From: Gemmatimonas sp.
GTDB taxonomy: Bacteria > Gemmatimonadota > Gemmatimonadetes > Longimicrobiales > Longimicrobiaceae
Assembly (NCBI GenBank): GCA_009380025.1
Contig: WHSP01000018.1
Coordinates: forward strand, 1 to 48,922
Direction: 5' to 3'
DNA: 48,922 nt
This document shows positions 12,231-28,674 of the stretch, in pieces (within the stretch, counting starts at the first letter, position 1; each line of letters begins with the position of its first letter). The translations under genes were made by a program, and so were the position numbers. The notes below the pieces were generated by a model, which worked only from the letters and a program-made list of their open reading frames with translations, did no database searches and was not told where the DNA came from.

Positions 12231-14933
12231 TCAATCCGCCCGCAGGACAACAGCCGGATCCACCCGGACAGCGCGAAACGCGGGGATTGTACTTGCGAGA
12301 ATTCCTACAAGAAGAAGAGCGAAGGCAACACTGGCTAGGGTGAGCGGGTCACGCGGCGCCACATCAAAGAGGAGCGCATCGATTCTCGGCGCGAGAAGGT
12401 ACGCGCACGTAAGACCGGCAAGGACACCGATGCTAGCCAGGCCGACTACCTCGCGGACTACGATACTGAGTAACTGCTTCCGTCGGGCACCCAGCGCGGC
12501 TCGAATCCCAAGTTCAAATCGGCGCTGTGTGACGCCGTAGGCGAGGGCGCTGTAGAGCCCGATGCCGGCTACGATCAACGCAAGCATGCCGAAGATGCTG
12601 AATACAGTGGCACCCAGGCGCCACGTTCGCGTTAGCGGACCGAAATAAGTCGACAATGGGAGGATCTCCGCGCTCTGGTTGGCCGGGTCGAGCTCAGTGA
12701 GTATCCCACGCACATCGGGGACGATTTCGATCGGTGGCCCTGCCGTTTTCAAAAGAATGACGCGGAAACGAGGCGTCACCCGCTTCTGTTCGGCGGGACG
12801 ATAGAAGTGCAGCGGCTGAGTCCCGTCCAAGGAGGTCTCACGGGAATCCTCCACGACCCCGATTACCTCGATACAGGGACCCGCAATCATTGGGGCCTGT
12901 AGACACCTCCCAATCGGATTCTCCTCTCCCCACATCACGCGAGCCATTGATTCGCTGACAACGACTGCGCCAGGGCCGGTGGCAGTATGCTCCCGGCCGA
13001 AACCCCGGCCGTGTCTGACCTGTAAGCCCATAGTCGCGAAATAATCCTGATCCACGTAGTGCAGTCGGGGCTCCAAGCCCGCTGGCAGTGTGTCTCCATC
13101 GACCGGTATCACGCGGAGGATGTATTGGGCCGCACCGAATGGGGCGCCGATGTCTCGAGAGGCGGTCTCAACGCCGGGAAGCCGTTGCAGGCGCTCCATG
13201 GCTTCGGCAAGGAGCTGGTCGTCCTCTCCTTGAGTAATCCCGTCTGAGAAACTCGGCGTCGCCAGCAACACGCGGTCCGGCTCAATCCCGAGATCGAGGC
13301 TCCTCACGTTGCCGAAGCTGCGCGCAAAGAGACCAGCACCAACGAGTAGTACTACGGACAAGGCAGCTTGGAGGGCGGTCAGTGAGCCTCGGACGCGGGT
13401 CGACCATGGCGACATCGTCCTTCCCCCATCCTTCAGGACCTCGCCGGCGGAAGTCCGCAGAAATTGCCACGCAGGGAGCATGGCGGCGAAGAGCCCAGCG
13501 ATGAGCGCAAGCAACAGCGTTAGGGTCACCGTTCGGGCGACCGATCCTGGAACGCTCCATTCAACGTCGGGCAGAAGCAGTGCGCCGAAGATCGAGCCGC
13601 CCCAGGTCGCAACGAGAAGCGCCGCCAATCCTCCGAATGCGGCGAGGATTGAGCTCTCCAGGAGGACCTGTCCAACAAGGCGGCTCCGGGAGCTTCCGAT
13701 CGCAAGCCTGATGGCCGATTCTCTGCGCTCACAGACGTGGCGCGAGATCAGAAGGTTGGCGATGTTCGAGCAGGCTACGATGAGGACGATCAGGGAGATA
13801 CCCGCCAGCCAGAGGGCGAGTCTCGACTCCTCGGGGGCGAGCGGTCCGCGCGATATTTGGAGCGGAGCTAAAACTGCCCGAGACTCGAGATCGGCGGGGT
13901 AGCCCGGGATTGGTGGGTTCTCTGCTCGGTCGGCACGAAGATAAGCAGTCGCCTGCGCGTCCGCTTGACTTTCGGAATAGTTTGAAGCCAGCCGCGTGAG
14001 GACTTGAACTGCGATGCACAGGCGGCCTTCGAAACAGTCAGTCTCGCCGTCCATGAGCTGCACCCCGGCGACACGCATCGGCAGCCACACATCAATCCGC
14101 CTCAGATCGACGCCCGTGAATCCCTGCGGCGCTACACCTACGACGGTATACGGCCCTAATCCGAAGTCCAGGATCCTACCGACCACGCCGGGATCTGCAC
14201 CGAACTGGCTCTGCCAAAGCGAGTAGCTGATCACCGCCAGCGGTTGGCCGCCAACTCGATCGTCCTCCTGGCCGAAGAAGGATCCAAGTGCAGGGCGAAC
14301 TCTGAGGAATTCGAAGAAGTTACCGGACACTGCCTGCCCCTGACCCATCAGCTCGTCCGGTCCCTCATTCAAACTGATCGTGCTCTTCGCGACTGCCGCG
14401 ACGGAAGCGAAGGCGGGGATGCGACTCAGCTCGACGAAATCGAGGTTCCTGATCTCATCTGCGACCTGACGGGATGCCGATGTGAATGCGATCTCGTCGA
14501 TCATCAGCCGCCGAACCTGCTCAGGCTCCAACACGTGGGCGGGTGGACTGAAGAGGGTGCGGTCCAGGATCGTGAACATCACCGCGTTTCCACCGATGCC
14601 CAGCCCGAACGTCGCGATGATTCCTGCGCTGAATAGGGGAGCCCGTGACAGGCGTCGGAAGGCGTAGCGGACGCTGGCGAAAGCGATGTCCACTCGGCGG
14701 TCCAACGACTCGATCCACGCCTTCCTGCGATCGATCGTCTCCAACTCACGGCGATACCGCTCAGCCTCTCCGAAACGGCGCCGCGCCTCTGCTTCAGCTT
14801 CCGCAGGAGAGAGCCCGGAGCGAACGAGATCGGCGACGGTGGACTCGTGGTGGAAGGCGAGTTCATCGTCCAGCTCTCTTCGCCACTTGCCAAGTCGGAA
14901 GACGCGGCGGATGCCGGCGAACCGCTCACTCAT
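12231..14933 (-). CDS. ADOP-type duplicated ABC permease, prefix-domain-1 type, second of tandem pair
   Basis: The 900-residue protein starts MSERFAGIRRVFRLGKWRRE. The prefix domain at 1-75 carries LDDELAFHHESTVADLVRSG and RRRFGEAERYRREL, followed by the first helix at about 100-120 (FGLGIGGNAVMFTILDRTLF). Two external domains and two sets of three helices follow, with RRESAIRLAIGSSRSRLVGQ after the first half and RRFELGIRAALGARRKQLLS in the second. The end is VRVDPAVVLRAD. It lies 80 bases downstream of a close paralogue on the same strand and has no regulator of its own, so it is probably read from the same PadR-controlled promoter. Tandem duplication followed by divergence is the simplest origin. 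Confidence 0.92.
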   Translation of the reverse strand: MSERFAGIRRVFRLGKWRRELDDELAFHHESTVADLVRSGLSPAEAEAEARRRFGEAERYRRELETIDRRKAWIESLDRRVDIAFASVRYAFRRLSRAPLFSAGIIATFGLGIGGNAVMFTILDRTLFSPPAHVLEPEQVRRLMIDEIAFTSASRQVADEIRNLDFVELSRIPAFASVAAVAKSTISLNEGPDELMGQGQAVSGNFFEFLRVRPALGSFFGQEDDRVGGQPLAVISYSLWQSQFGADPGVVGRILDFGLGPYTVVGVAPQGFTGVDLRRIDVWLPMRVAGVQLMDGETDCFEGRLCIAVQVLTRLASNYSESQADAQATAYLRADRAENPPIPGYPADLESRAVLAPLQISRGPLAPEESRLALWLAGISLIVLIVACSNIANLLISRHVCERRESAIRLAIGSSRSRLVGQVLLESSILAAFGGLAALLVATWGGSIFGALLLPDVEWSVPGSVARTVTLTLLLALIAGLFAAMLPAWQFLRTSAGEVLKDGGRTMSPWSTRVRGSLTALQAALSVVLLVGAGLFARSFGNVRSLDLGIEPDRVLLATPSFSDGITQGEDDQLLAEAMERLQRLPGVETASRDIGAPFGAAQYILRVIPVDGDTLPAGLEPRLHYVDQDYFATMGLQVRHGRGFGREHTATGPGAVVVSESMARVMWGEENPIGRCLQAPMIAGPCIEVIGVVEDSRETSLDGTQPLHFYRPAEQKRVTPRFRVILLKTAGPPIEIVPDVRGILTELDPANQSAEILPLSTYFGPLTRTWRLGATVFSIFGMLALIVAGIGLYSALAYGVTQRRFELGIRAALGARRKQLLSIVVREVVGLASIGVLAGLTCAYLLAPRIDALLFDVAPRDPLTLASVAFALLLVGILASTIPAFRAVRVDPAVVLRAD

Positions 14934-15013
14934 GGGCCTGCCTCCAACTTTGGAGAACGTTGGTCACGGTGGTCCTAACCTTCGACGCTTCGATCCAGCC
15001 CCCGCCCGAAGCC

Positions 15014-17695
15014 TTACTCCGCCCTAAGAACAACGCCTGGATCCACTCGGGCCGCTCGTCTTGCGGGAAGAATGCAGGCGACCCCGGCGACCACGAGCAA
15101 GGTGATCGCGACCCCAGCGAGAGTCAGCGGATCGCGGGGTGAGACCTCGAACAGCAGATCCTCGATCCGGGGAGTGAGGAAGTACGCGGCCAGGAGACCG
15201 GCCAAGATCCCGACGCCCGTCAACACCAATCCCTCTTTGAACACGAGGGCGGTGAGCTGTTTGCGCCGTGCGCCCAATGCCGATCGAATCCCGAGTTCGA
15301 ACATTCGTTGCGCGACCCCGTACGCGAGCGCGCTGTACAACCCGACGCCGGCGACAATGAGCGCGAGGAGGCCAAAGATCGTGAAGAGGCTGGCTCCCAG
15401 CCGCCAAGAGCGCGTCTGCCGATCGACGAGGTCCGCTACAGGGATGATCTCGACTCGGGAGACGCCACGAATCGACGTTGCGACGGCGCGCACGTCGGGC
15501 GTAATCAACGACGCCGGGGTCGACGTTCTGATGAGGATCACCCCGCCCGGCGGTCCGGCCGGTCTCTGCTCGAAGGGCACGTAGTAGTTGATCGGCTGGG
15601 TGGCATCCAGGGCCGCTTCGCGCGAATCGGCCACGACGCCGATCACTTCCATGCAGTCTCGAGGCGGCAGCAGCATGATCAGGCAATCGCCCAGCGGATC
15701 CTCGCTTGGCCAGAGGAGGCGAGCCAGCGATTCGCTGACGACCACTACCCGTGGCGCTGTAGCCGAGTCATCGGGGCGGAGGCCGCGCCCGCGGAGCAAC
15801 TGCAGGCCGGATAGGCCAAAGTAGTCCGGATCTACCGCGTGAAGACCGGCCTCGTACCCAGGCGGAAGCGAGTCACCGTCCGCCGTCCATGCCGGAACGA
15901 TTGCGCGGAGCGCGAATGGCACGCTGAGATCGCGAGATGCGGCCTCCACAGAGGGTAAGCGCTCGAGCTCGGCCATCACCTGGCCAATGAGGCGACCTTC
16001 TTCTTGGCGGGACATCTCCTCTTCGACGATGGGTGCCACCGCCAGCAGACCTTCGGGCTCGACGCCGAGGTCCACCGTCTGGACGTTCTGAACGCTTCGG
16101 ACGAAGAGCCCTGCCCCTACCAGAAGCAGGACGGAAAGGCCAGCCTGGACCGCCGTCAGGGTGCTGCGCATCCTTGCGATCGGCATCGCCATCGTTCTTC
16201 CGCCGCTTTTCAAGGCTTCACCGACGCTGGACCGGGAGAAATGCGCCGCGGGGACAAGGGCGGCCAGAAGTCCGGCGAACGTCGCCGCCAGCAGCGTGAA
16301 ATACACTGTGCGCCGGGCCAGCCCCGGAACCTCCCAGCCGAGCTCCGGAAGGAGCAAGGTTCGTAGCGCGGTCCCACCCCATTGGGCGATGAAGTAGCCA
16401 GCGACCGCTCCGATCATCGAGAGAATCAAACTCTCGAGAACCACCTGCCCGGCGAGGCGCCGCCGTGAGCTGCCGATCGCCAACCGAACGGCGGATTCGC
16501 GACGCTCGCGAGAGAGCCGGGCGATGATCAGGTTCGCGATATTCGAACAAGCGATGAGTAAGACCACTAGCGAGATACCGGCCAACCAGATTGCGACCTT
16601 CGACTCCTGGGATGCCTGCGGTCCACGGGCGGTGAGCAGCGGGGTCACCACTGCGCGTGAATCGTCCTGGAAGGGTCCCCGAGAGCCCGCTGCTTCGCGG
16701 CCGGCGAGAATTGCTGCCCAGGCCTGGGACTCGACTTGAGCATCCGAATAAGCCGGGTCGATTCGAACGATCGCGCTCATGCCCCCGCATCCACGGCGGC
16801 CGTCGAAGCACTCCGGACCTTGCATCCGCGCCCAGGTGAGCCGCAGAGGCACCCAGACGTCGATCGGAGCGAGGTCGGCGCCGGAGAATCCCGGCGGTGC
16901 CACGCCCACGACCCGGTAGGGGCCATCCCCGAAATCCAATGTCTGGCCGATGACGTCGTCCGCTCCGCCGAACCAGGTCCGCCACAAGTGATCGCTGATC
17001 ACCGCGACGGCCGACCCGCCGATCTGGTCGTCCTCAGGTCCGAAGAACCGACCCAGCGACGGCCTCACTCCCAGGAACTCGAAGAAGTCACCAGCCACCA
17101 GTTGGCCGATCCCCTGGTTCAGACCGGGGTCGCCCAATTCGATGGTGGGTCCGACCATAGTCAGGTCCTTGATCCCAGTGGCTCGTGAGAGATCGAGGAT
17201 ATCCGGGTAGTTACCGATCTCGTGCGTTTCCGCGAGCGCCCCGCGTCCAATGGAGCCGTGGATCAGAACTCGCCGTATCGTCTCCGGTTCGGCGATGTGT
17301 GGTGGCGGGGTAAGAAAGAGTCGGTCGATGATCGAGAACATCGTCGCGTTCGCCCCGATGCCCAGCGCGAACGTTAGGATGATGCCAACGCTGAATACGG
17401 GAGCCCGCCTCAGTCGGCGGACTGCGTATTTGATGCTGGCGGCGGTGACGTCGAGACGATGCTCCCAAGCTTGGGCGATCGCAGCCCGTCGGTCGATCCG
17501 TTCGATTGCACGGCGATAACCTGCCCGACTTCCGAAACGGCTATTCGCCTCTGCCTCCGCCGCTTCGCGAGACAGTCCCGACTCCATCAACTCCTCGACC
17601 GTGGCGCCATGGTGGAAGGCAAGCTCGTCGTCCAGCTCCTTGCGCCAGAGTCCGACGCGAAGGATTCGCCGGAGTCCCGGAAATCGCTCTCTCAT
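15014..17695 (-). CDS. ADOP-type duplicated ABC permease, prefix-domain-1 type, first of tandem pair
   Basis: The start is ATG 17695, which overlaps the PadR TGA as ATGA and gives 893 residues (MRERFPGLRRILRVGLWRKE). The open frame continues upstream to 18058, but that part is PadR in another frame. The prefix domain LDDELAFHHGATVEELMESG aligns with that of the next gene almost position for position. The first helix (about 100-120) has FALGIGANATMFSIIDRLFL. The protein ends in PARRAARVDPGVVLRAE. The C-terminal helices (QRMFELGIRSALGARRKQLT) again match the neighbour closely. PadR, this gene and the next form one minus-strand unit. Confidence 0.92.
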   Translation of the reverse strand: MRERFPGLRRILRVGLWRKELDDELAFHHGATVEELMESGLSREAAEAEANSRFGSRAGYRRAIERIDRRAAIAQAWEHRLDVTAASIKYAVRRLRRAPVFSVGIILTFALGIGANATMFSIIDRLFLTPPPHIAEPETIRRVLIHGSIGRGALAETHEIGNYPDILDLSRATGIKDLTMVGPTIELGDPGLNQGIGQLVAGDFFEFLGVRPSLGRFFGPEDDQIGGSAVAVISDHLWRTWFGGADDVIGQTLDFGDGPYRVVGVAPPGFSGADLAPIDVWVPLRLTWARMQGPECFDGRRGCGGMSAIVRIDPAYSDAQVESQAWAAILAGREAAGSRGPFQDDSRAVVTPLLTARGPQASQESKVAIWLAGISLVVLLIACSNIANLIIARLSRERRESAVRLAIGSSRRRLAGQVVLESLILSMIGAVAGYFIAQWGGTALRTLLLPELGWEVPGLARRTVYFTLLAATFAGLLAALVPAAHFSRSSVGEALKSGGRTMAMPIARMRSTLTAVQAGLSVLLLVGAGLFVRSVQNVQTVDLGVEPEGLLAVAPIVEEEMSRQEEGRLIGQVMAELERLPSVEAASRDLSVPFALRAIVPAWTADGDSLPPGYEAGLHAVDPDYFGLSGLQLLRGRGLRPDDSATAPRVVVVSESLARLLWPSEDPLGDCLIMLLPPRDCMEVIGVVADSREAALDATQPINYYVPFEQRPAGPPGGVILIRTSTPASLITPDVRAVATSIRGVSRVEIIPVADLVDRQTRSWRLGASLFTIFGLLALIVAGVGLYSALAYGVAQRMFELGIRSALGARRKQLTALVFKEGLVLTGVGILAGLLAAYFLTPRIEDLLFEVSPRDPLTLAGVAITLLVVAGVACILPARRAARVDPGVVLRAE

Positions 17696-18021
17696 GTGCT
17701 CGCCTCCGGGCGTCGAAGGACCTTGGATACGGCCGCGCTGTAGGCGTCCCACGTCCGGATTTCCGACGCCAGATGCTGGCGCCCGGTTTCGGTGAGCGCA
17801 TAGTACTTCGCCCGCCGCTTGTTCTCCGAAACGCCCCATTCGGAAGCCAGGTATTTCCGCTTCTCCAGCCGGTGCAGGGCGGTGTAGAGCGCTCCTTCCT
17901 CGATGTCCAGCGCACCGTCGGTCGTCTCCCGGATCCACCGAACGACGCCGTATCCGTGGAGTGGCCCGAAGATCAGCGCCTTGAGAATCAAAACGTCCAG
18001 TGTGCCTTGGATCAGGTTCAT
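17692..18021 (-). CDS. PadR-family transcriptional regulator
   Basis: The start is ATG 18021 (MNLIQGTLDVLILKALIFGP), preceded by GAGGG, giving 109 residues; the longer open frame to 18195 reaches into the RCC1 gene. The winged helix includes LHGYGVVRWIRETTDG and EEGALYTALHRLEKRKYLAS, followed by the ADOP-linked PadR signature SENKRRAKYYALTETGRQHL. Its TGA overlaps the ATG of the downstream permease. This class of PadR (QGTLDVLIL...KYY.LT..G) is typically found fused in operon with ADOP genes and is a different branch from the PadR at 4.8 kb. Confidence 0.93.
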   Translation of the reverse strand: MNLIQGTLDVLILKALIFGPLHGYGVVRWIRETTDGALDIEEGALYTALHRLEKRKYLASEWGVSENKRRAKYYALTETGRQHLASEIRTWDAYSAAVSKVLRRPEAST

Positions 18022-18073
18022 CGTGCCCTCGTACTGTCGAAGCCGTTTGCGGCGGCAAAGGGCCGGTCGACCA

Positions 18074-19354
18074 TCACTCGGCCTGTACCGGTCCGATTCG
18101 TGTCGGTTCGAGCGCCCGGTCGGATCGATGGAACGGAAGGTAGCCCCAGCAGAAGAACTCTTCGGCCCACCGGCCGCACGACGAGGCATGGCCATGGCCG
18201 CCCGCGCCGACCGTCAACGCTTGGTCGCCCGGACCGCGGGGACCAGGGATGTGCTGTGGTACAGTCGGCCATCGTCCGAACTCGCCATCGCTGCCATTTC
18301 CCCAGCAGTGAACCGACTCAGTCGCTGTGAGCGCACACGTATGCCGTGGACCCACACTGACGGATTGGTACCGATCGTCCCCGACAACGTGAACCGGAAC
18401 CGATCGATTTCGTGATTGGCCGTCCCCGAGCTGGCCGCTCGCGCCGTCGCCCCAGCAGTAGGCTTGCCCCGTCGTTGCCACACCACATGTGTGCGCCAGA
18501 CCCGCCGACACGGAGTGAAAGGTCAGATCGCCAACCACCTCGGTCGGGGTGAGGCGCCCTTGGGCGAACCCGGTCCCGAGGCGTCCCGCACTTCCGTGTC
18601 CCCAGCACAGAGCCACGCCGTCGACGGTCACTCCGCAGGTGTGTCTCGCACCAGCAGAGATCGAACGGAACGTATGCTGGCCAGCCAGCATCGAGGGCGA
18701 TCTGTGCGAGAACGCCAACCCATTGCCTAGCTGACCATCGCGCCCATTCCCCCAGCAGTACCCTTCCCCTGAGATCGCGACGGCGCAGGTATGGACGACT
18801 CCCGCGCTGACCGAAAGAAATGGCGCCGGCTGATTCTCGACTGGCACGGGGACGTAGCTGTAGGCGAAGCGGTTACCCAACTGCCCGTCGTAGTTCTCGC
18901 CCCAGCAGTATGCGACGCCTCCCACGGTGACCGCGCAGGCATGACGCCAGCCTGCGCTGATCGCTCGAAATCGGTGGTTGCCAGCGATCGGCTGAAGTTC
19001 ACCGCTGAACGAAAGGCTCTTCCCAATGCCAAGCTGCCCGTACTCGTTCCTCCCCCAGCAAAACCCTTTGCCCTCTCGGTCGAGACCACAGGCGAATCGT
19101 TCACCTACGCTGATGGATTCGGCTTCACCTGAAGTAGGTAGGTAGCCAGCGACCGGGGCGACCAGTCCGTCCGCGCCGGTAGGCCCGGGGTCCGCCTCCC
19201 GGTCGGGACCGTTGCCTCCGGTGCAGCCGATTAGGACAAGCGTTGCCAGTCCGGACAGCGAGGAAGGACGAACGATCAAGCTCAAGTGACTGGTGTTGCG
19301 GATTGCAGCTGGAACCGCTGCGAGACCGGAATAGATCGAACTACCGGTCCACAT
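18074..19354 (-). CDS. RCC1-repeat lipoprotein with a cysteine pair per repeat
   Basis: The product is up to 426 residues with seven RCC1-type repeats, which should fold as a beta-propeller. Each repeat carries the pattern H-[TA]-C-[AG]-V followed about eight residues later by C-W-G (HACAVTVGGVAYCWG, HTCAVAISGEGYCWG and so on), and YDGQLG- or DGQLG-type glycine loops follow. The regular cysteine pairs suggest one disulfide per repeat in an oxidising compartment. An N-terminal hydrophobic segment ends in LVLIGC, a lipobox with Cys44, so it is probably a surface lipoprotein. The start is uncertain: ATG 19354 lies inside the upstream gene and a TTG about 24 codons later is possible. RCC1 proteins of this kind in bacteria have no settled function. 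Confidence 0.85.
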   Translation of the reverse strand: MWTGSSIYSGLAAVPAAIRNTSHLSLIVRPSSLSGLATLVLIGCTGGNGPDREADPGPTGADGLVAPVAGYLPTSGEAESISVGERFACGLDREGKGFCWGRNEYGQLGIGKSLSFSGELQPIAGNHRFRAISAGWRHACAVTVGGVAYCWGENYDGQLGNRFAYSYVPVPVENQPAPFLSVSAGVVHTCAVAISGEGYCWGNGRDGQLGNGLAFSHRSPSMLAGQHTFRSISAGARHTCGVTVDGVALCWGHGSAGRLGTGFAQGRLTPTEVVGDLTFHSVSAGLAHTCGVATTGQAYCWGDGASGQLGDGQSRNRSVPVHVVGDDRYQSVSVGPRHTCALTATESVHCWGNGSDGEFGRWPTVPQHIPGPRGPGDQALTVGAGGHGHASSCGRWAEEFFCWGYLPFHRSDRALEPTRIGPVQAE

Positions 19355-20458: not shown

Positions 20459-21492
20459 CTAGCGGTCGGCAGCGGCAGAACATCTGAATGTGCCCAGCAT
20501 CTGCTCGAGTTGGAGCACGAGATCGTACTTGGGTGTGGCCGGGGCATACAATCGGGCGTCGGCCAGATAGAGCCCGTCGGGGCACTCCATCATCTGCGCC
20601 ACAAAGGGCCCCGCGGCCGGCCACTCGCCTTCGGGATTCGACCATACGCCACGCACGCTGATCACCCGGCCCGACGCCCGCACTCCGTGAAGAGCGGGCG
20701 GATGTGTCTCCGTGACCTGTGGGGGCAGGCTGTACTGGTGTCCCAGCTCGGATCTCCATTCAACGGCACCATTCGCCGACCAATCAACCGCCCCGATGGG
20801 TCGGGACGCTACCGTGATGGTCCGAATGACGGGCGCGGCCGGCGTGTCGTCCGCGTGCTGGAGACATGAACACCTGTATCGGGAGTTTCGTAGCCGAACG
20901 GGGCGGGCAGGAATAGCTGAAACTGGAGATCCCGCCGAGATGTGTGATCGATCCAGCCGCCTTCAAGAATGGCCGCACCAACCTCCATCTGCTCCTGGTA
21001 CTGGCGCAGGTAGACGTCTCCTACCTCGGTGAGCAGCTCGATGACCGCGCTTCGGTCGGAATCCGGCGCAAGGAGCGCGACGGTCACGACCTGCCGTTTG
21101 GCCCAAACGTTCGGGATTTGAAGAATGGCCGGAGGATGAATAGGACCGAGATCGTCGGCCCGGGCGAGTGCTTCCGATACTTGCGGATCGGTTGCTCGAC
21201 CGACCAGGAGAATTCGACGCATGAGCCTCAGGTCGGTCCATGCGGTGTCTCTCGGGTCGAGATAGGCAACGTCGAAGATGGGTTCATCGCGAACGGTGAA
21301 TACGCGCGGTTCCAGCGAGCTGCGAAGGGCAGATCCCAGTTCTTCTCGTAGTTCCGAGGAAATTGAGACGACGATCTGCTCGGTGGTTCCGGTGGCCGCG
21401 AGCTCACATCCTGGTATTGCAACCGCGAAGGCAACCAGGAAGGCCAGACAGGACACGGAGGCCTTCGAGGCGGAGATCACCGAGCCTCCCAT
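20459..21492 (-). pseudogene. DUF4837-like lipoprotein with one frameshift
   Basis: From ATG 21492 the frame gives a signal (VSCLAFLVAFAVAIPGC, lipobox Cys29) and ELREELGSALRSSLEPRVF. It then gives PEPVFD-like DEPIFDVAYLDPRDTAWTDL and a region with RRILLVGRATDPQV and YLRQYQEQMEVGAAILEGG. At about 20864 a base appears to be missing. The next frame continues HADDTPAAPVIRTITVASRP, RVISVRGVWSNPEGEWPAAG, GPFVAQMMECPDGLYLADAR and YDLVLQLEQMLGTFRC. Those last blocks match the end of DUF4837 proteins (W..E....GPF....; ...YAP...K......E..L.TF), known as lipoproteins of unknown function in Bacteroidota. The gene follows the M56 peptidase by 115 bases. Confidence 0.65.
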
Positions 21493-21607
21493 TTGTCCAA
21501 TCACCTCGCGCCGAAGGCTTCCCCCAGCGTTCCGGCATTCAGGGGTCGCTTGGCGCGGGCTCACGTCACCCGTCGGGACCGGGGCCTGTCCGATCTTCAC
21601 CGGGCGT

Positions 21608-23251
21608 TCACGGCCGGCCCTCTTGCAGCGAGAACCGCGTTGCGTCGGTGCGGCGAACTGCCGCAAGGACCTCGTGCATGTATCTGTATTCTGCTTCGGG
21701 ATCAATGCGGACGATTGCGATTGTGCCGGCGTTCTCCTCGAGGGAATGACGCAACACAAACGAAACTTGATTCCGTTGAATCTTCTGCTCGCCCCTGCTT
21801 TCGCCGCGACGAACGATAACCCACCCGGAGGGCTGGACATAGAAGTACAACAGATTGCTTAGGGCGGAATCGACCTGGTCCGTCGTTTCGGGGAGGACGA
21901 CTGGGAGTCCCCCGTCAACCAACGTCGAAGGATCCCGGGGGGACGACGGTACACCCGGCTGCTCGATGGCGGCGAAATTGACGCGAAGGAGGCCGGCCTC
22001 GATCAACTCGGCCTGAACGTTCGACACTATGGCGTACGGAACCCAAGCATCTGCCTCGATCCAGGCGATCGTACTGTCGCGGTTGAGTGACGCGACGACC
22101 TCGGAGATCTGCTCCATGGGTTGATCCGCGCCATTCACACGGACCGATCCGTCACGCGCAACCTGGATTGTGACCACGTTACGGCTTGCTGACGCGGCGG
22201 CATCGGACGATTCGGATGCGGATTCGGACGACGCTGTCGAACTCCCCTCGGCTGCCACCGGTGCCTCGCTCGAGCAGGCGATGGCGAGCAGGAGCAACGC
22301 AACAGAGCCTGTGGCAAGGACGCTTCGGATCGAGGGCCTCCGTTTCGGTCGCTTCATCAGGGTAAGCCTCCGTTCAAGGAGAGAAGTGGATCCCGCCATC
22401 GTCGGAGCCGCCAGGGAAGGGAACCAGCCACGAGTGCCCAGCTTGACCAGTAACTTCCCGTAGGCTGCGGACTGGAATCCCTCGCGAAGTACACGGCGGT
22501 CACAGTCGACCTCGACCGCTCCCCTCAGCCTCCGCACCTTCCACCAGACGAGCGGATTCCATGGGCAGACGACCAAAGCTGCGAGACCCACCGCGAGCAG
22601 CAGCGTGTCGCGAGAGCGGACGTGCTCCTGTTCGTGGCGAAGGATTAGCTCCAGCTCATGCTCGGGGAGCGCCTGCGCCCAACGCGGCATCACGATCCGC
22701 GGCGTCAGAAATCCAACCGTCGCGGGTCCCGTTTGCGGTGACACTTTCACGGGTTGCCCAAGCAGAATCTCTTCAGGCCACCGCCGTGCGCGCTTGAGCA
22801 GCCCGAGAAGCGACACTCCAAAGATCAACGCGACCAATGTCGAGGCGACGCTCCAGACCCCCATAATCCAGGCTGGTGAGACCTCGGCGGAGGGAAAGAA
22901 ACGGGTCCCTGAGATGAGAACTTGCCCGGCATCGGTCCACCATCCATACAAAACCTCGAACGCAGCGGCAGCTTCTTCGTCACCTCCCGCGGTCCGCCCC
23001 TCCATCGGCACGGACCTTTGCAGCAGTGTTATCGAGTCAGCACCAGTCGGTGGTGCCGAGGCGCCGCGGTCGCGCGAACTGGGCACGAACGCGGCAACCG
23101 GCAGCCAGACCGAGAGGATCAGCGCTCCTCCGATCCACACCCACCGGATGGGAATGCGGAGATTCGTCAGCATCCTCTCGAGAAGCCATCCACTCACTGC
23201 GAGCAACAGCCCGATCCACAGCGCAAAGAGAACGAGTCCGATGGCGTTCAC
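21608..23251 (-). CDS. M56 (BlaR1-type) membrane metallopeptidase with two C-terminal ExbD/TolR-like domains
   Basis: The protein has 547 residues and starts at GTG 23251, overlapping the BlaI stop as GTGA. Helices lie at about 4-24, 37-56 and 127-152. The zinc motif is RHEQEH (H206, E207, H210) after LPEHELELIL, with AVEVDCDRRVL as the downstream acidic ligand region. A fourth helix (308-325) leads into a Ser/Ala-rich linker. Residues 358-428 (TIQVARDGSVRVNGADQPM...AIVSNVQAELIEAGLLRV) follow the ExbD/TolR periplasmic pattern, and residues 466-540 look like a second, more diverged copy. BlaR1 proteins normally carry a penicillin-binding sensor there. By family knowledge M56 cleaves a cytosolic regulator such as BlaI on sensing a signal. 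Here the ExbD-like pair may be the sensor. Confidence 0.88.
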   Translation of the reverse strand: MNAIGLVLFALWIGLLLAVSGWLLERMLTNLRIPIRWVWIGGALILSVWLPVAAFVPSSRDRGASAPPTGADSITLLQRSVPMEGRTAGGDEEAAAAFEVLYGWWTDAGQVLISGTRFFPSAEVSPAWIMGVWSVASTLVALIFGVSLLGLLKRARRWPEEILLGQPVKVSPQTGPATVGFLTPRIVMPRWAQALPEHELELILRHEQEHVRSRDTLLLAVGLAALVVCPWNPLVWWKVRRLRGAVEVDCDRRVLREGFQSAAYGKLLVKLGTRGWFPSLAAPTMAGSTSLLERRLTLMKRPKRRPSIRSVLATGSVALLLLAIACSSEAPVAAEGSSTASSESASESSDAAASASRNVVTIQVARDGSVRVNGADQPMEQISEVVASLNRDSTIAWIEADAWVPYAIVSNVQAELIEAGLLRVNFAAIEQPGVPSSPRDPSTLVDGGLPVVLPETTDQVDSALSNLLYFYVQPSGWVIVRRGESRGEQKIQRNQVSFVLRHSLEENAGTIAIVRIDPEAEYRYMHEVLAAVRRTDATRFSLQEGRP

Positions 23252-23676
23252 GATTCCCCTCCTTCGGATTCGTCCCCTTGCTCGCGCGCCAGCTCGTCGA
23301 GGATGTGGCGCATCCGCCGCAGCTGGTCGTCTGAGATCGGCCGGTCTTCCGCCAATCGCTCAACCAGCCCCGCGAACGCAAGGTCGGCGGAACCGTGGAA
23401 GATCTTTTCGACGATCCTGCCCAACGCGCTCCGGCCCGCAGCCTCGGGGGCGACCATCGGGAAGTACCGGTAGGCTCGGCCTTCGGACTCGTGGCGGACG
23501 TGACCTTTCTCTTCCAGGATCTGCAGCATCTTCAGAATCGACGTGTAGCCCGGCTCGTTCTGAACATGTGCGCGAACCTCGTTGACGGTGCCCGATCCGA
23601 GCTTCCACAGGATGCTCATGATGTCCAGCTCGCGATCCGTAAACTGCACGTCCTCTGACACAGTCGCCTCGTTCAT
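23248..23676 (-). CDS. BlaI/MecI/CopY-family transcriptional repressor
   Basis: The start is ATG 23676 (MNEATVSEDVQFTDRELDIM), giving 142 residues; an in-frame ATG at 23694 would leave almost no leader from the promoter described next. The winged helix runs over TDRELDIMSILWKLGSGTVN, EVRAHV, YTSILKMLQILEEKGHV and RAYRYFPMVAPEAA, all standard for BlaI. The C-terminal helical half serves dimerisation and carries the site normally cut by the cognate M56 peptidase. The coupled M56 gene directly downstream supports a two-gene sensor-repressor operon. No beta-lactamase gene is present nearby, so the controlled genes are probably the operon itself and perhaps the lipoproteins beyond. Confidence 0.92.
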   Translation of the reverse strand: MNEATVSEDVQFTDRELDIMSILWKLGSGTVNEVRAHVQNEPGYTSILKMLQILEEKGHVRHESEGRAYRYFPMVAPEAAGRSALGRIVEKIFHGSADLAFAGLVERLAEDRPISDDQLRRMRHILDELAREQGDESEGGES

Positions 23677-23705
23677 TTCGGGGTGGCGGCGCATACGACA
23701 GTTCT

Positions 23706-23758
23706 CGTACGAAGTATAGTGAGCGCTTGCTCGATTGTCTACACCCATCTTCGTAGAC
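23706..23758 (-). promoter_or_regulatory. Sigma-70-type promoter and inverted-repeat operator of the BlaI operon
   Basis: On the minus strand a -35 of TAGACA (23736-23741) and a -10 of TATACT (23713-23718) are 17 bases apart, five of six matches each to consensus. The inverted repeat GTCTAC-N10-GTAGAC (23737-23758) overlaps the -35 box. BlaI-type repressors bind dyads containing TAC...GTA, so a self-repressing circuit is likely. Transcription would begin near 23706, some 30 bases before the BlaI start. Confidence 0.65.
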
Positions 23759-24481: not shown

Positions 24482-24998
24482 ATGGCACGTGAAGCTTTGG
24501 AAGTGCTCTTTCGCCGCTATTACCACGCGCTCCGCGGGGTCGCTGGTCGCTATGTGGCTTGCGCCGATGATGCAGAGGACGTGGTTCAAGAGGTGTTCGC
24601 CCGACTCTACGAACGACCGGCGACCTGGCAGCGGTGCAGGGAACCGCAGCGGTACCTCTTCACGGCAGTTCGCAACCAGGCACTCAAGCGGCGAAGGCGC
24701 GACCGCGTCGCAAGAGAAGCCCAGCGCGTCCTTGAAGGCCGGCTCCGTCCGGTGGGCATGAGTGAACGTGTGGCCTCGCCCGACGAGCATCTACGAGCGA
24801 CGGAACTGATCCGTGCGTTCCTCTCGTCCGTCGACCAGTTGCCGCCCCGATATCGCGAGGCGTACCTGGGACATTACTGGCACGGGATGACGCAGGCGCA
24901 GGTTGCGCAGGCGATGGGCATTTCGGTTCGAAACCGTCGAGACGCAGGTTGCTCACGCCAAGAAAATGCTTCGGCGAGACCTTGCCGGATTCATTTGA
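24482..24998 (+). pseudogene. ECF RNA polymerase sigma factor with one frameshift
   Basis: ATG 24482 opens MAREALEVLFRRYYHALRGV, and region 2 follows with DDAEDVVQEVFARLYERP. Region 4 has VDQLPPRYREAYLGHYWHGM then TQAQVAQAMGISV. At about 24931 an extra A breaks the frame; one base fewer restores TVETQVAHAKKMLRRDLAGF and a TGA at 24996, the standard end of an ECF sigma factor (about 171 residues). As written, the second half of the DNA-binding helix-turn-helix is lost and an unrelated tail runs to 25042. It is either a recent null mutation or a sequencing error. No anti-sigma gene follows; the next DNA is an ADOP relic. Confidence 0.78.
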
Positions 24999-25096
24999 TC
25001 CGACCCAACGAATTAGGCGTGGCCCGGTCGCGCGGGCCTTGAGCGGCTTACATGCGATGCAGCGTCAGGGACCCCGTCGTCCCGTGCCGGCGCATT

Positions 25097-25661: not shown

Positions 25662-25994
25662 ATGCCAAGTGACGATCTGCAGTTGCTCCAGGGTACGCTC
25701 GATGTCCTCGTCCTGAAGACCCTCTCCTGGGGTCCTCGGCACGGCTACGAGATCGCGCGCTGGATCAAGGACACGACGGACGCCGAGCTTCGGGTGGAGG
25801 ACCGTGCTCTGTACGTGTCCCTGCATCGGATGGAGGAGCGGGGCTGGCTGGAAAGTGACTGGGGCCTGACCGAGAACAACCGGAAGGCGAAGTACTACCG
25901 GATGACCCGGGAAGGGCGAAGGCAACTCGCTACGAAGACGAACACCTGGTCGCGCTATGCGGCTGCCGTCTTCAAGGTTCTCGAGACTATCTGA
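25662..25994 (+). CDS. PadR-family transcriptional regulator
   Basis: The 110-residue protein starts MPSDDLQLLQGTLDVLVLKT and belongs to the same ADOP-linked branch as the PadR at 17.7 kb. The HGYEIARWIKDTTD helix, ALYVSLHRMEERGWLESDWG recognition region and NNRKAKYYRMTREGRRQL wing are all intact. It lies 13 bases before an ADOP gene on the same strand and surely forms an operon with it. No strong ribosome site precedes the ATG. The C-terminal TWSRYAAAVFKVLE is the usual short dimer helix. Confidence 0.93.
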   Translation: MPSDDLQLLQGTLDVLVLKTLSWGPRHGYEIARWIKDTTDAELRVEDRALYVSLHRMEERGWLESDWGLTENNRKAKYYRMTREGRRQLATKTNTWSRYAAAVFKVLETI

Positions 25995-26007
25995 CTAGCT
26001 GAGATCG

Positions 26008-28674
26008 ATGCGACGGATTCCGGGAATCCGGCGGTTGCTTCGCCTGCCACCGTCGGGCAAGCGGATCGCAGGGGAAGTCGGCGACGAGATTGCGTTTCAC
26101 CTCGAGGAGCGCACGCGAGAGTTGGTGGAGCAAGGGCTCGACCTGCGAGCGGCTCGTGAGCAAGCGTCGCGCGAGTTCGGAAGCGTAGCGGAAGCCAGTG
26201 CCGAGCTCGAAGAGATCGATCGGAGGCGCGCGCGACGGTCGACCCGCTCCGCGTGGTGGGATGACCTCGTTTCCGATGTCCGCTATGCCGCACGGACATT
26301 CAGGCGAGGCCCGACCTTCGCCGCGGTGGTCATTCTGACGCTCGCGCTCGGCATCGGTGCAAACACGGCGATCTTCAGCGTGGTGAACGGAGTGCTCCTG
26401 CGTCCGCTTCCCTACCCCGACGGTCTGATGATGGTCTGGTCGCACGCCATCGATGCCCCTTCCGACGGGGCTCCGCTCTCCGGCCCGGACATGAATGACG
26501 TGCGAGACCTCGATGCGGTCAGCGCCATCGAGGGTATCGCCCTGACGGACCTGACGCTAACGGGGTTCGAGGCGACGGAGCTCGTTCGCGTGGCAAGAGT
26601 GACCGGTGGGTTGCTCCGGCTGTTTGATCTGACGCCGGCCTTGGGAAGGAATCTGACGCACGAGGACAATGTCGAGGGCGCGGCGCGGGTCGTCCTGGTC
26701 GGTCACGATTTCTGGCAGACGCATCTTGGGGGGCGAAGAGAGGTCCTAGGAACGACAATCGAGCTCAACGAAGAAAGTTACGAGCTCGTGGGAGTCGCGC
26801 CCGCTGGCTTTCGCTTTCCGGTTGGCGGGACGTTTGGCCCCGAAGGGGTGCAGCTGTGGACGGCCGATCGTCGCACCGAGTCCCGCCGGACCATGCTGTA
26901 CAATGCTACTATTGCGCGGCTCACCCCGGGTGTGCCGCTCGAGCGTGCTTCCGGTGATCTCGACGCCCTTGCCGTTGCGCTGTCGGGCGAATATCCGAGG
27001 CTCGCCCATCAAGAACGGCTTCGTTTCGAACGGCTCGAGGACTTCATCGTCGGCGCTGTGCGCCGGCCGCTCTGGATCGTACTTGGTGCCGTTGGCTTGG
27101 TGCTGCTGATCGCCTGTGCGAACGTGGCGAACTTGCTGCTCGTGCGCGCCTCGGCCCGCCGGGAGGAAGTCGCGGTGCGTGCGGCACTGGGGGCGAGTCG
27201 CCGTCGTCTCATGACGCAGGTACTGGTCGAGAGTCTCGTGCTCGCGGTCGGCGGCGGCGCGATCGGGCTTCTCCTCGCCGTCGGTGGTGTCGAGATCCTG
27301 AAGGAGTTCGGGCCCGATGCAATTCCTCGTCTCGATCAAATTTCGCTCGATGCGACGGTGCTCGCTTTCTCCTCCGCCGTTACGATCGTTGTCGCCCTCC
27401 TGTTCGGGCTGAGCCCGGCGCTCCATGCGGCCGACACCTCGCTCGTCGAGAATCTGCGTAGCGACTCCCGCAGCGGGCAGCCTGCCCGCCAACGCTGGTT
27501 CCGCCAGCTCCTGCTTTCTGTTGAGATCGCTCTATCGCTCGTGCTGCTGGCCGGTGCGGGTCTGCTCACACGAAGCCTTATCAAACTTTACCAGGTCGAG
27601 CTTGGCTTCGACGCCCGCGAGGTCGTACGGTTCGACTTGTCGCTCCCTTCCGCACGGTATGACTCACTGGCAACCGTTGTTTCATTCTACGAGGCGCTTG
27701 AGGAACGGATCTCTGCTGAGCCCGGGGTTCAGGCGGTTGGCTCGACGGTGGGCGCACCGCTCAGGGACAGAGGGAGCGGTGGGTTCGTGCTTTTCGAAGG
27801 GACTCCTGAGCCAGAGCCGGGAGAGGAGTTGATTGGCTGGATACGGCCGGTCACGCCGAGCTACTTTGAGGCCATGGGGCTGCGGCTGCTTCGCGGCCGC
27901 GGAATCGAAGCGACGGACCGCAGTGCGAACCTTCCGGTCGCCGTGGTCAACGAGACGCTCGTCCGCGAGGCTCTGGGAGGCGAGAATCCGATCGGAAAGC
28001 GGTTCGGAGCGACGATCGACGTCGGGATCGGCCGACCTAAATGGACGGTGGTGGGCGTGGTGGCCGACGAGCGTCCCAGCCTTGAGGAGGATCTGAGACC
28101 GGAGTTTTACGTGCCGCATGCCCAGTCAGGGTCGAGGTCATTGACGGTGCATGTTCGCGGAAATCCGGGTGCAAGCAACCTCCTGGCAGGGGTGCGGGAG
28201 CATGTCCACACGCTCGATCCAAACCTGCCGCTCCGTCAACCGGAAACCGTTCGAGAGGCGATCCGGGACGACGCGGCCTCAACGCGGTTCTTCCTGCTTC
28301 TGGTCGCCCTTTTTGCCGCCCTCGCCGTTGTCCTTGCGATAGTCGGGCTCTATGGCGTTGTGTCACGCCTCGCGTCGCAACGCACACGCGAATTCGGCAT
28401 CCGTATCGCGCTCGGCGCCCAGCGCCAGACAATCACCGCGCTGGTGCTCCGTCAGGCGCTCTGGCCGGCGCTACTCGGCGTCGCCGGAGGATTGCTCGCT
28501 TCGATTGCTGTGACCCGCGTAATGCGCAGCCTACTGTTCGAAGTCGAGCCGATGGATCCACTGGTGCTGGCGGTGGTCAGCTTTTCCCTCCTCATGATCG
28601 CAGCGGCTGCAAGCCTGTTGCCCGCCCGGAGAGCGTCACGCCTCGATCCGGTCGAGGTGTTGCGGATCGAATAA
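26008..28674 (+). CDS. ADOP-type duplicated ABC permease, prefix-domain-1 type
   Basis: The 888-residue intact protein begins MRRIPGIRRLLRLPPSGKRI. The prefix domain (1-75) contains GDEIAFHLEERTRELVEQGL and ASREFGSVAEASAEL. The first helix at about 103-125 has TLALGIGANTAIFSVVNGVL. The first external domain holds the usual VRVARVTGGLLRLFDLTPAL and GVAPAGFRFPVGG blocks, then three helices with LVRASARREEVAVRAALGAS. The second half ends with helices around SQRTREFGIRIALGAQRQ and the signature PARRASRLDPVEVLRIE. Together with the PadR upstream it is the only complete plus-strand pair in the window. Substrate unknown. Confidence 0.93.
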   Translation: MRRIPGIRRLLRLPPSGKRIAGEVGDEIAFHLEERTRELVEQGLDLRAAREQASREFGSVAEASAELEEIDRRRARRSTRSAWWDDLVSDVRYAARTFRRGPTFAAVVILTLALGIGANTAIFSVVNGVLLRPLPYPDGLMMVWSHAIDAPSDGAPLSGPDMNDVRDLDAVSAIEGIALTDLTLTGFEATELVRVARVTGGLLRLFDLTPALGRNLTHEDNVEGAARVVLVGHDFWQTHLGGRREVLGTTIELNEESYELVGVAPAGFRFPVGGTFGPEGVQLWTADRRTESRRTMLYNATIARLTPGVPLERASGDLDALAVALSGEYPRLAHQERLRFERLEDFIVGAVRRPLWIVLGAVGLVLLIACANVANLLLVRASARREEVAVRAALGASRRRLMTQVLVESLVLAVGGGAIGLLLAVGGVEILKEFGPDAIPRLDQISLDATVLAFSSAVTIVVALLFGLSPALHAADTSLVENLRSDSRSGQPARQRWFRQLLLSVEIALSLVLLAGAGLLTRSLIKLYQVELGFDAREVVRFDLSLPSARYDSLATVVSFYEALEERISAEPGVQAVGSTVGAPLRDRGSGGFVLFEGTPEPEPGEELIGWIRPVTPSYFEAMGLRLLRGRGIEATDRSANLPVAVVNETLVREALGGENPIGKRFGATIDVGIGRPKWTVVGVVADERPSLEEDLRPEFYVPHAQSGSRSLTVHVRGNPGASNLLAGVREHVHTLDPNLPLRQPETVREAIRDDAASTRFFLLLVALFAALAVVLAIVGLYGVVSRLASQRTREFGIRIALGAQRQTITALVLRQALWPALLGVAGGLLASIAVTRVMRSLLFEVEPMDPLVLAVVSFSLLMIAAAASLLPARRASRLDPVEVLRIE

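Follow-up and report, generated by a model that had tools for sequence, protein, structure and literature searches.

A BlaI-linked M56 peptidase of Gemmatimonadota with a tail resembling the ExbD pair of its genome's own Ton motor, and its possible role as a reader of TonB

The window, i.e., the whole stretch of 48,922 nucleotides analyzed here (contig WHSP01000018.1, Gemmatimonas sp.), contains on its minus strand (21608-23251) a single uninterrupted open reading frame with a GTG start. Its translation and Pfam analysis reveal a 547-residue fusion of an M56 peptidase with an ExbD2-like and an ExbD1-like domain, arranged as M56 core, last membrane helix, Ser/Ala linker and two periplasmic domains of the ExbD/TolR type. 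The single open frame, together with the same layout in a second genome, rules out an assembly artefact as its source. The core (residues 174-298; 22358-22732, minus strand) matches PF05569 above the curated cut-off (E 2.8e-21) and possesses the zinc-binding motif HEQEH at residues 206-210 (22622-22636, minus strand). It aligns with the BlaR1 of Staphylococcus aureus (8exp) over a stretch that includes HExxH and the second Glu/Asp motif and runs to where the last membrane helix begins; profile, motif and alignment together place the protein in the M56 family. This helix (residues 310-325; 22274-22324, minus strand) ends in a lipobox-like LAIAC with Cys326, is kept in relatives, and is followed by the Ser/Ala-rich linker (residues 327-356; 22184-22273, minus strand). 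The sequence-only reading had proposed an M56 zinc peptidase with this motif beside BlaI, and a helix and Ser/Ala-rich linker between core and tail; both proposals hold.

A membrane zinc peptidase with HExxH, preceded by an overlapping blaI with dyads at the promoter, is the arrangement of BlaR1/MecR1 and BlaI/MecI in Staphylococcus, and such a pair could be taken for an ordinary beta-lactam sensor. In the fusion, by contrast, the ExbD2-ExbD1 tail stands where BlaR1 has its class-D beta-lactamase-like sensor, and the last helix ends in a Cys. Pfam and fold comparison found no penicillin-binding domain of this class after the M56 core, ExbD being the sole match there, and the fusion scores 49.2 bits with the NCBIfam BlaR1 equivalog model, far below its cut-off of 400. 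The earlier claim that a penicillin-binding tail is missing is thus borne out, and beta-lactam sensing, which is refuted at the domain level, retains almost no credibility.

The adjoining blaI gene (23248-23694, minus strand), whose stop overlaps the start of the fusion gene, encodes a protein matching PF03965 (E 1.4e-23). The start of blaI is uncertain and probably lies between 23694 and 23661, the listed ATG at 23748 being upstream of the promoter. The latter, a sigma-70-like TAGACA-17-TATACT (23713-23741, minus strand), agrees with the consensus at 10 of 12 positions (shuffles give 0.4). Two BlaI-type dyads are associated with it. The imperfect O1, TACGAAGATGGGTGTA on the minus strand (23740-23755), overlaps the -35 hexamer TAGACA, as the sequence-only reading had noted, and shares a motif common to the regions upstream of relatives' blaI. 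The perfect O2, TACGA-N6-TCGTA (23694-23709, minus strand), lies just downstream of the -10. O2 is the sole exact copy in the 5.02 Mb assembly; since the reversed control pattern is commoner, with two occurrences, it is the place of the dyad that constitutes evidence and not the genome-wide count. Of 59 regions collected from upstream of relatives' blaI, eight contain TACGA-N6-TCGTA and six CTACGG-N6-CCGTAG, and this recurrence supports autoregulation by BlaI. Judged by position, the blaI-m56 promoter would be controlled by BlaI through both dyads, and the PF03965 match with dyads at its own promoter marks the gene as a putative member of the BlaI/MecI group. When two mismatches are allowed, the dyad occurs 169 times in the genome against 172 for the control; this is no enrichment, and the dyad therefore did not define a regulon. 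Before exbB, and so before the Ton operon, no dyad was found with up to two mismatches, and we do not claim control of that operon by BlaI.

An open reading frame reading from about 21495 (20809-21495, minus strand), 110-120 bp after the fusion gene, has a lipoprotein-like signal and no Pfam match, and is a possible third gene of the operon. On the opposite strand, upstream of blaI, lies a gene for an ECF-type sigma factor (24482-25042, plus strand), while 18074-19354 (minus strand) encodes a protein of RCC1-like repeats. The locus is flanked by large permease-like open reading frames (12231-18195 and 25662-28674), two of which adjoin small PadR-like regulator frames.

The tail of the fusion matches PF02472 (ExbD; E 6.7e-10, above the curated cut-off) in two stretches. 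Domain A, of about 75 residues (357-430; 21962-22183, minus strand), is ExbD2-like and retains the last strand LRVNFA, whereas domain B, of about 98 residues (446-543; 21623-21916, minus strand), is ExbD1-like and retains TRFSLQ. Residues 340-547 were modeled with AlphaFold2 from a two-row alignment. Mean pLDDT is moderate at 60.5, with most of domain B at about 70-90, and both domains display the strand-helix order of ExbD. Comparison of the model with the PDB returned, as its first six matches, periplasmic domains of ExbD/TolR, alone or with a TonB or D-box peptide (E. coli entries include 8pek, 8p9r, 8vgc and 5by4). Three of the six are ExbD with a TonB peptide, and four superimpose with TMt 0.82-0.86 and rmsd 1.6-1.7 Å. 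A search of the tail sequence against PDB chains gave no match. Profile search and predicted structure, both proposed as checks by the sequence-only reading, together confirm the periplasmic ExbD/TolR fold that had been read from the letters, two domains of it; the packing of the two domains against each other in the model is tentative. In domain B, GLPVVLPE (residues 448-455; 21887-21910, minus strand) aligns with GLQVVLPE of the free ExbD1 and, by its position and our reading, is a candidate counterpart of the N-terminal interlocking strand of ExbD, which fills the groove in the closed form and yields to TonB (PMC10771500).

Unlike ExbD or TolR, the fusion places two such domains in one chain with a protease. 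The membrane helix before its tail, SVLATGSVALLLLAIA, contains no Asp, whereas the free proteins possess SMADIAFLLL (ExbD1) and SLADIAFLLL (ExbD2), and no ExbB adjoins the fusion, the genome's ExbB being on another contig. The tail itself thus cannot be the stator of a proton-driven motor.

The motor proper is encoded on that other contig of the same genome by an operon exbB-exbD1-exbD2-tonB, confirmed by Pfam. The presence of two distinct exbD genes in this operon (L088:4362-6890; contig C122 of the window genome, G000) suggests that the motor combines both ExbD proteins. Domain A resembles ExbD2 (33%), and domain B is 51% identical to the genome's ExbD1; by sequence comparison the order of the tail, ExbD2-like then ExbD1-like, matches the genome's own exbD pair. 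The last strands LRVNFA and TRFSLQ are identical between the fusion and the free ExbD2 and ExbD1. No part of the tail is better kept than these TonB-recruiting strands; in E. coli, the D-box strand of TonB docks onto the last strand in both ExbD protomers (PMC10907165). The TonB proteins of these genomes have, directly after the membrane helix, a short proline-flanked stretch that contains hydrophobic residues. In E. coli TonB, the D-box sits just after the membrane helix.

A second fusion with the same order (blaI, M56, ExbD2-like, ExbD1-like) was found in a Longimicrobiales metagenome-assembled genome (G082, locus L078), and the two tails are 39% identical. Both domains and their order have been kept in two distant genomes. 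In phylogenetic analysis, domain B of the window protein clusters at support 100 with the ExbD1 sequences of its own lineage, while that of G082 sits within a clade of 25 members consisting of ExbD1 of other families (support 89). When all ExbD domains are placed in one tree, the two domains A are weakly joined (85) and the two domains B are not. On an alignment this short (about 75-95 sites), the trees are compatible with a single fusion event or with two; the pair may have been captured twice, or each fusion copy may have stayed matched to its own motor.

The architecture is rare. A search with the two-domain tail matched only these two genomes among 395 genomes of the phylum and 154 of the order, two sets that overlap. 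Scanning genome contigs with the single sequence found no relative; the two-row alignment retrieved ten M56 loci, of which only the contig of G082 carries ExbD. The phylum-wide search also gave single-domain ExbD matches in long open frames, and the M56 profile, run with its cut-off on five of these loci (L100-L104), found no M56 protein. No ExbD tail on M56 was seen in 396 genomes of Acidobacteriota or 395 of Bacteroidota (the phyla of loci L083 and L081), where the three best candidates per genome were scored, a scheme that may pass over divergent or single-domain fusions; the M56 proteins of these samples carry other tails. Within the literature accessible to us, which includes few subscription journals, neither an ExbD-tailed M56 fusion nor M56 proteins with Ton-type tails are described, in agreement with the sequence-only reading, which knew of no description of the arrangement.

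The other members of the family put this tail into context. Among 89 Gemmatimonadota M56 tails, Pfam recognizes Plug in 44, TonB_C in 19, TonB_2 in ten, ExbD in two and the carboxypeptidase-regulatory families in three each; a tail can match more than one family, and the set is biased toward relatives of the window protein because it was found with that protein. Nearly all of the matched families are parts of the Ton system, CarboxypepD_reg and STN accounting for few of the tails. The M56 proteins with TonB_C, Plug or CarboxypepD_reg tails (Bacteroidota, Acidobacteriota, Gemmatimonadota) share with the fusion the core, the position of the tail, its origin in the Ton pathway and, mostly, a blaI upstream. 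They differ in that the tail of the window protein corresponds to the stator pair of the motor and was found in two genomes only. The sister tails (TonB_C, Plug, CarboxypepD_reg, STN), although all from the Ton pathway, have neither one fold nor one ligand in common.

Individual cases illustrate the range. The tail at L079:5707-7251 (weak STN, CarbopepD_reg_2/CarboxypepD_reg and a receptor start) resembles the front of a TonB-dependent receptor; the protein at L099:4295-6508 has three tandem TonB_C domains; and one from Bacteroidales (L084) combines CarboxypepD_reg, Plug and TonB_C. Loci L140, L148, L154, L158 and L163 contain runs of two to four adjoining M56 genes with tails resembling fragments of receptor plugs. 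The genome of the window also encodes an M56 protein with a HEAT-repeat tail (L091:3550-5640; contig C36 of G000), one of a few tails that have nothing to do with Ton.

HEAT repeats and HlyD-like domains are among the unrelated M56 tails, so the slot accepts many modules. M56 genes might accordingly take up any small periplasmic domain by neutral shuffling, the ExbD pair having nothing to do with Ton function; the great diversity of tails across phyla and the rarity of the ExbD fusion are in keeping with this. It nevertheless leaves unexplained that the great majority of Gemmatimonadota M56 tails match Ton-pathway families, that both ExbD domains and their order persist in two distant genomes, and that each domain B tracks the ExbD1 of its own lineage, and we consider such shuffling improbable. 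The ExbD pair is best seen, on these sequence comparisons, as a rare further case of Ton parts placed in the M56 tail slot, and the M56 proteins with such tails probably report on the Ton system rather than on antibiotics. M56 proteins with Ton-type tails in several phyla are already covered by existing Pfam models; the features we regard as new are a tail made of the ExbD pair, the correspondence of this pair to the motor of the same genome, and a conserved internal lipobox.

The last of these is seen in 80 of the 87 M56 proteins compared from Gemmatimonadota (the window protein and those of loci L078-L166). In them the last helix, preceded by positive charges, ends in a PROSITE-like lipobox, and in 62 the Cys is followed by Asp or Glu at +2. 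The 24,906 residues that precede this helix contain 37 matches to the pattern, a rate at which about seven of 87 would be expected by chance. It is present in the Bacteroidota-sample proteins L218, L224, L226 and L244, and absent from most Bacteroidales proteins and from the Bryobacteraceae protein. The last helix could be a type II signal sequence, with Lgt and LspA lipidating Cys326 and cutting the tail off the protease. Frequency, charges and +2 residues favor this, as does the orientation of the helix, which we take from BlaR1 topology to be N-in/C-out. The lipobox-like motif of the fusion is conserved in its relatives but is internal to a polytopic protein, the residue at +2 in the window protein is Ser, and several M56 proteins, L079 and L115 among them, lack the Cys yet have Ton-type tails; lipid modification is accordingly a tentative possibility. 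The tail so freed might, and we are equally hesitant on this point, become an inner-membrane lipoprotein that acts on the M56 core from outside the peptidase chain. A broader version, in which a BlaR1-like class of Gemmatimonadota and some Bacteroidota displays copies of Ton parts (ExbD pair, TonB_C, plug, STN) as sensors freed and lipid-anchored by signal peptidase II through the internal lipobox, strikes us as rather unlikely.

Such processing is compatible with the explanation we favor, namely that a two-gene regulator of the BlaR1/BlaI type has had its beta-lactam sensor replaced by a covalent ExbD2-ExbD1 copy of the genome's own Ton motor, which reads TonB. We rate the chances of its being correct as even. 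In BlaR1/MecR1, binding of ligand to the outer domain is relayed through the last helix to the peptidase, ending repression by BlaI/MecI (PMC7593790); this scheme is kept, and the mechanism of the fusion is therefore proposed by analogy. BlaI would repress the blaI-m56 promoter from the two dyads. The periplasmic pair would bind the ligand of the motor pair, with the D-box strand of free TonB as the likeliest candidate and the glycan strands of peptidoglycan as the alternative. Binding would alter the ExbD pair, and the last membrane helix would relay the change to the zinc peptidase, whose cleavage of BlaI would de-repress the operon. The system would in this way report the balance between free and engaged TonB.

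The alternative ligand deserves separate consideration, as the two domains might attach to glycan strands and signal contact with the wall or damage to it, much as BlaR1 reports beta-lactams. Periplasmic dimers of ExbD do interact with peptidoglycan glycan chains (PMC10771500). BlaI-type systems are, moreover, classically tied to wall stress. The tails of close relatives are, on the other hand, TonB_C, Plug, CarboxypepD_reg or STN, and we know of no wall binding by Plug or CarboxypepD_reg; furthermore, the parts best kept in the tail are those which recruit TonB. A sensor of peptidoglycan is consequently doubtful in our judgment. The TonB explanation is favored by the domain content and fold, the alignment of the core with BlaR1, the genome's own Ton operon, the kinship of domain B with ExbD1, the identical last strands, the proline-flanked stretch of TonB, and the sister tails, which come from the Ton pathway and occupy the same position as the ExbD pair. 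Against it, the perfect operator is unique to the system's own promoter, with none before the Ton operon, so that an output regulating Ton is not seen; the fusion stands alone, away from the Ton genes; the tail model is of moderate confidence; and the M56 slot takes unrelated modules too. Of the interpretation offered by the sequence-only reading, the putative envelope-linked sensor is the part that fits best.

FecR/FecA-type cell-surface signaling monitors the Ton system by means of Ton-related domains in the periplasm, its output being an ECF sigma factor. The proposed reader likewise consists of periplasmic Ton-related domains, whereas its output would be a protease and BlaI. Knowledge of how cells sense the condition of their Ton motor is largely confined to such signaling from receptor to sigma factor. 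The conserved internal lipobox provides a separate and simple prediction across many genomes. If the TonB explanation is true, a protease and its repressor, equipped with copies of the stator pair of the motor itself, would give a direct readout of TonB engagement, and the BlaR1 scaffold, known for antibiotic resistance, would be recast as a general chassis for envelope sensing.
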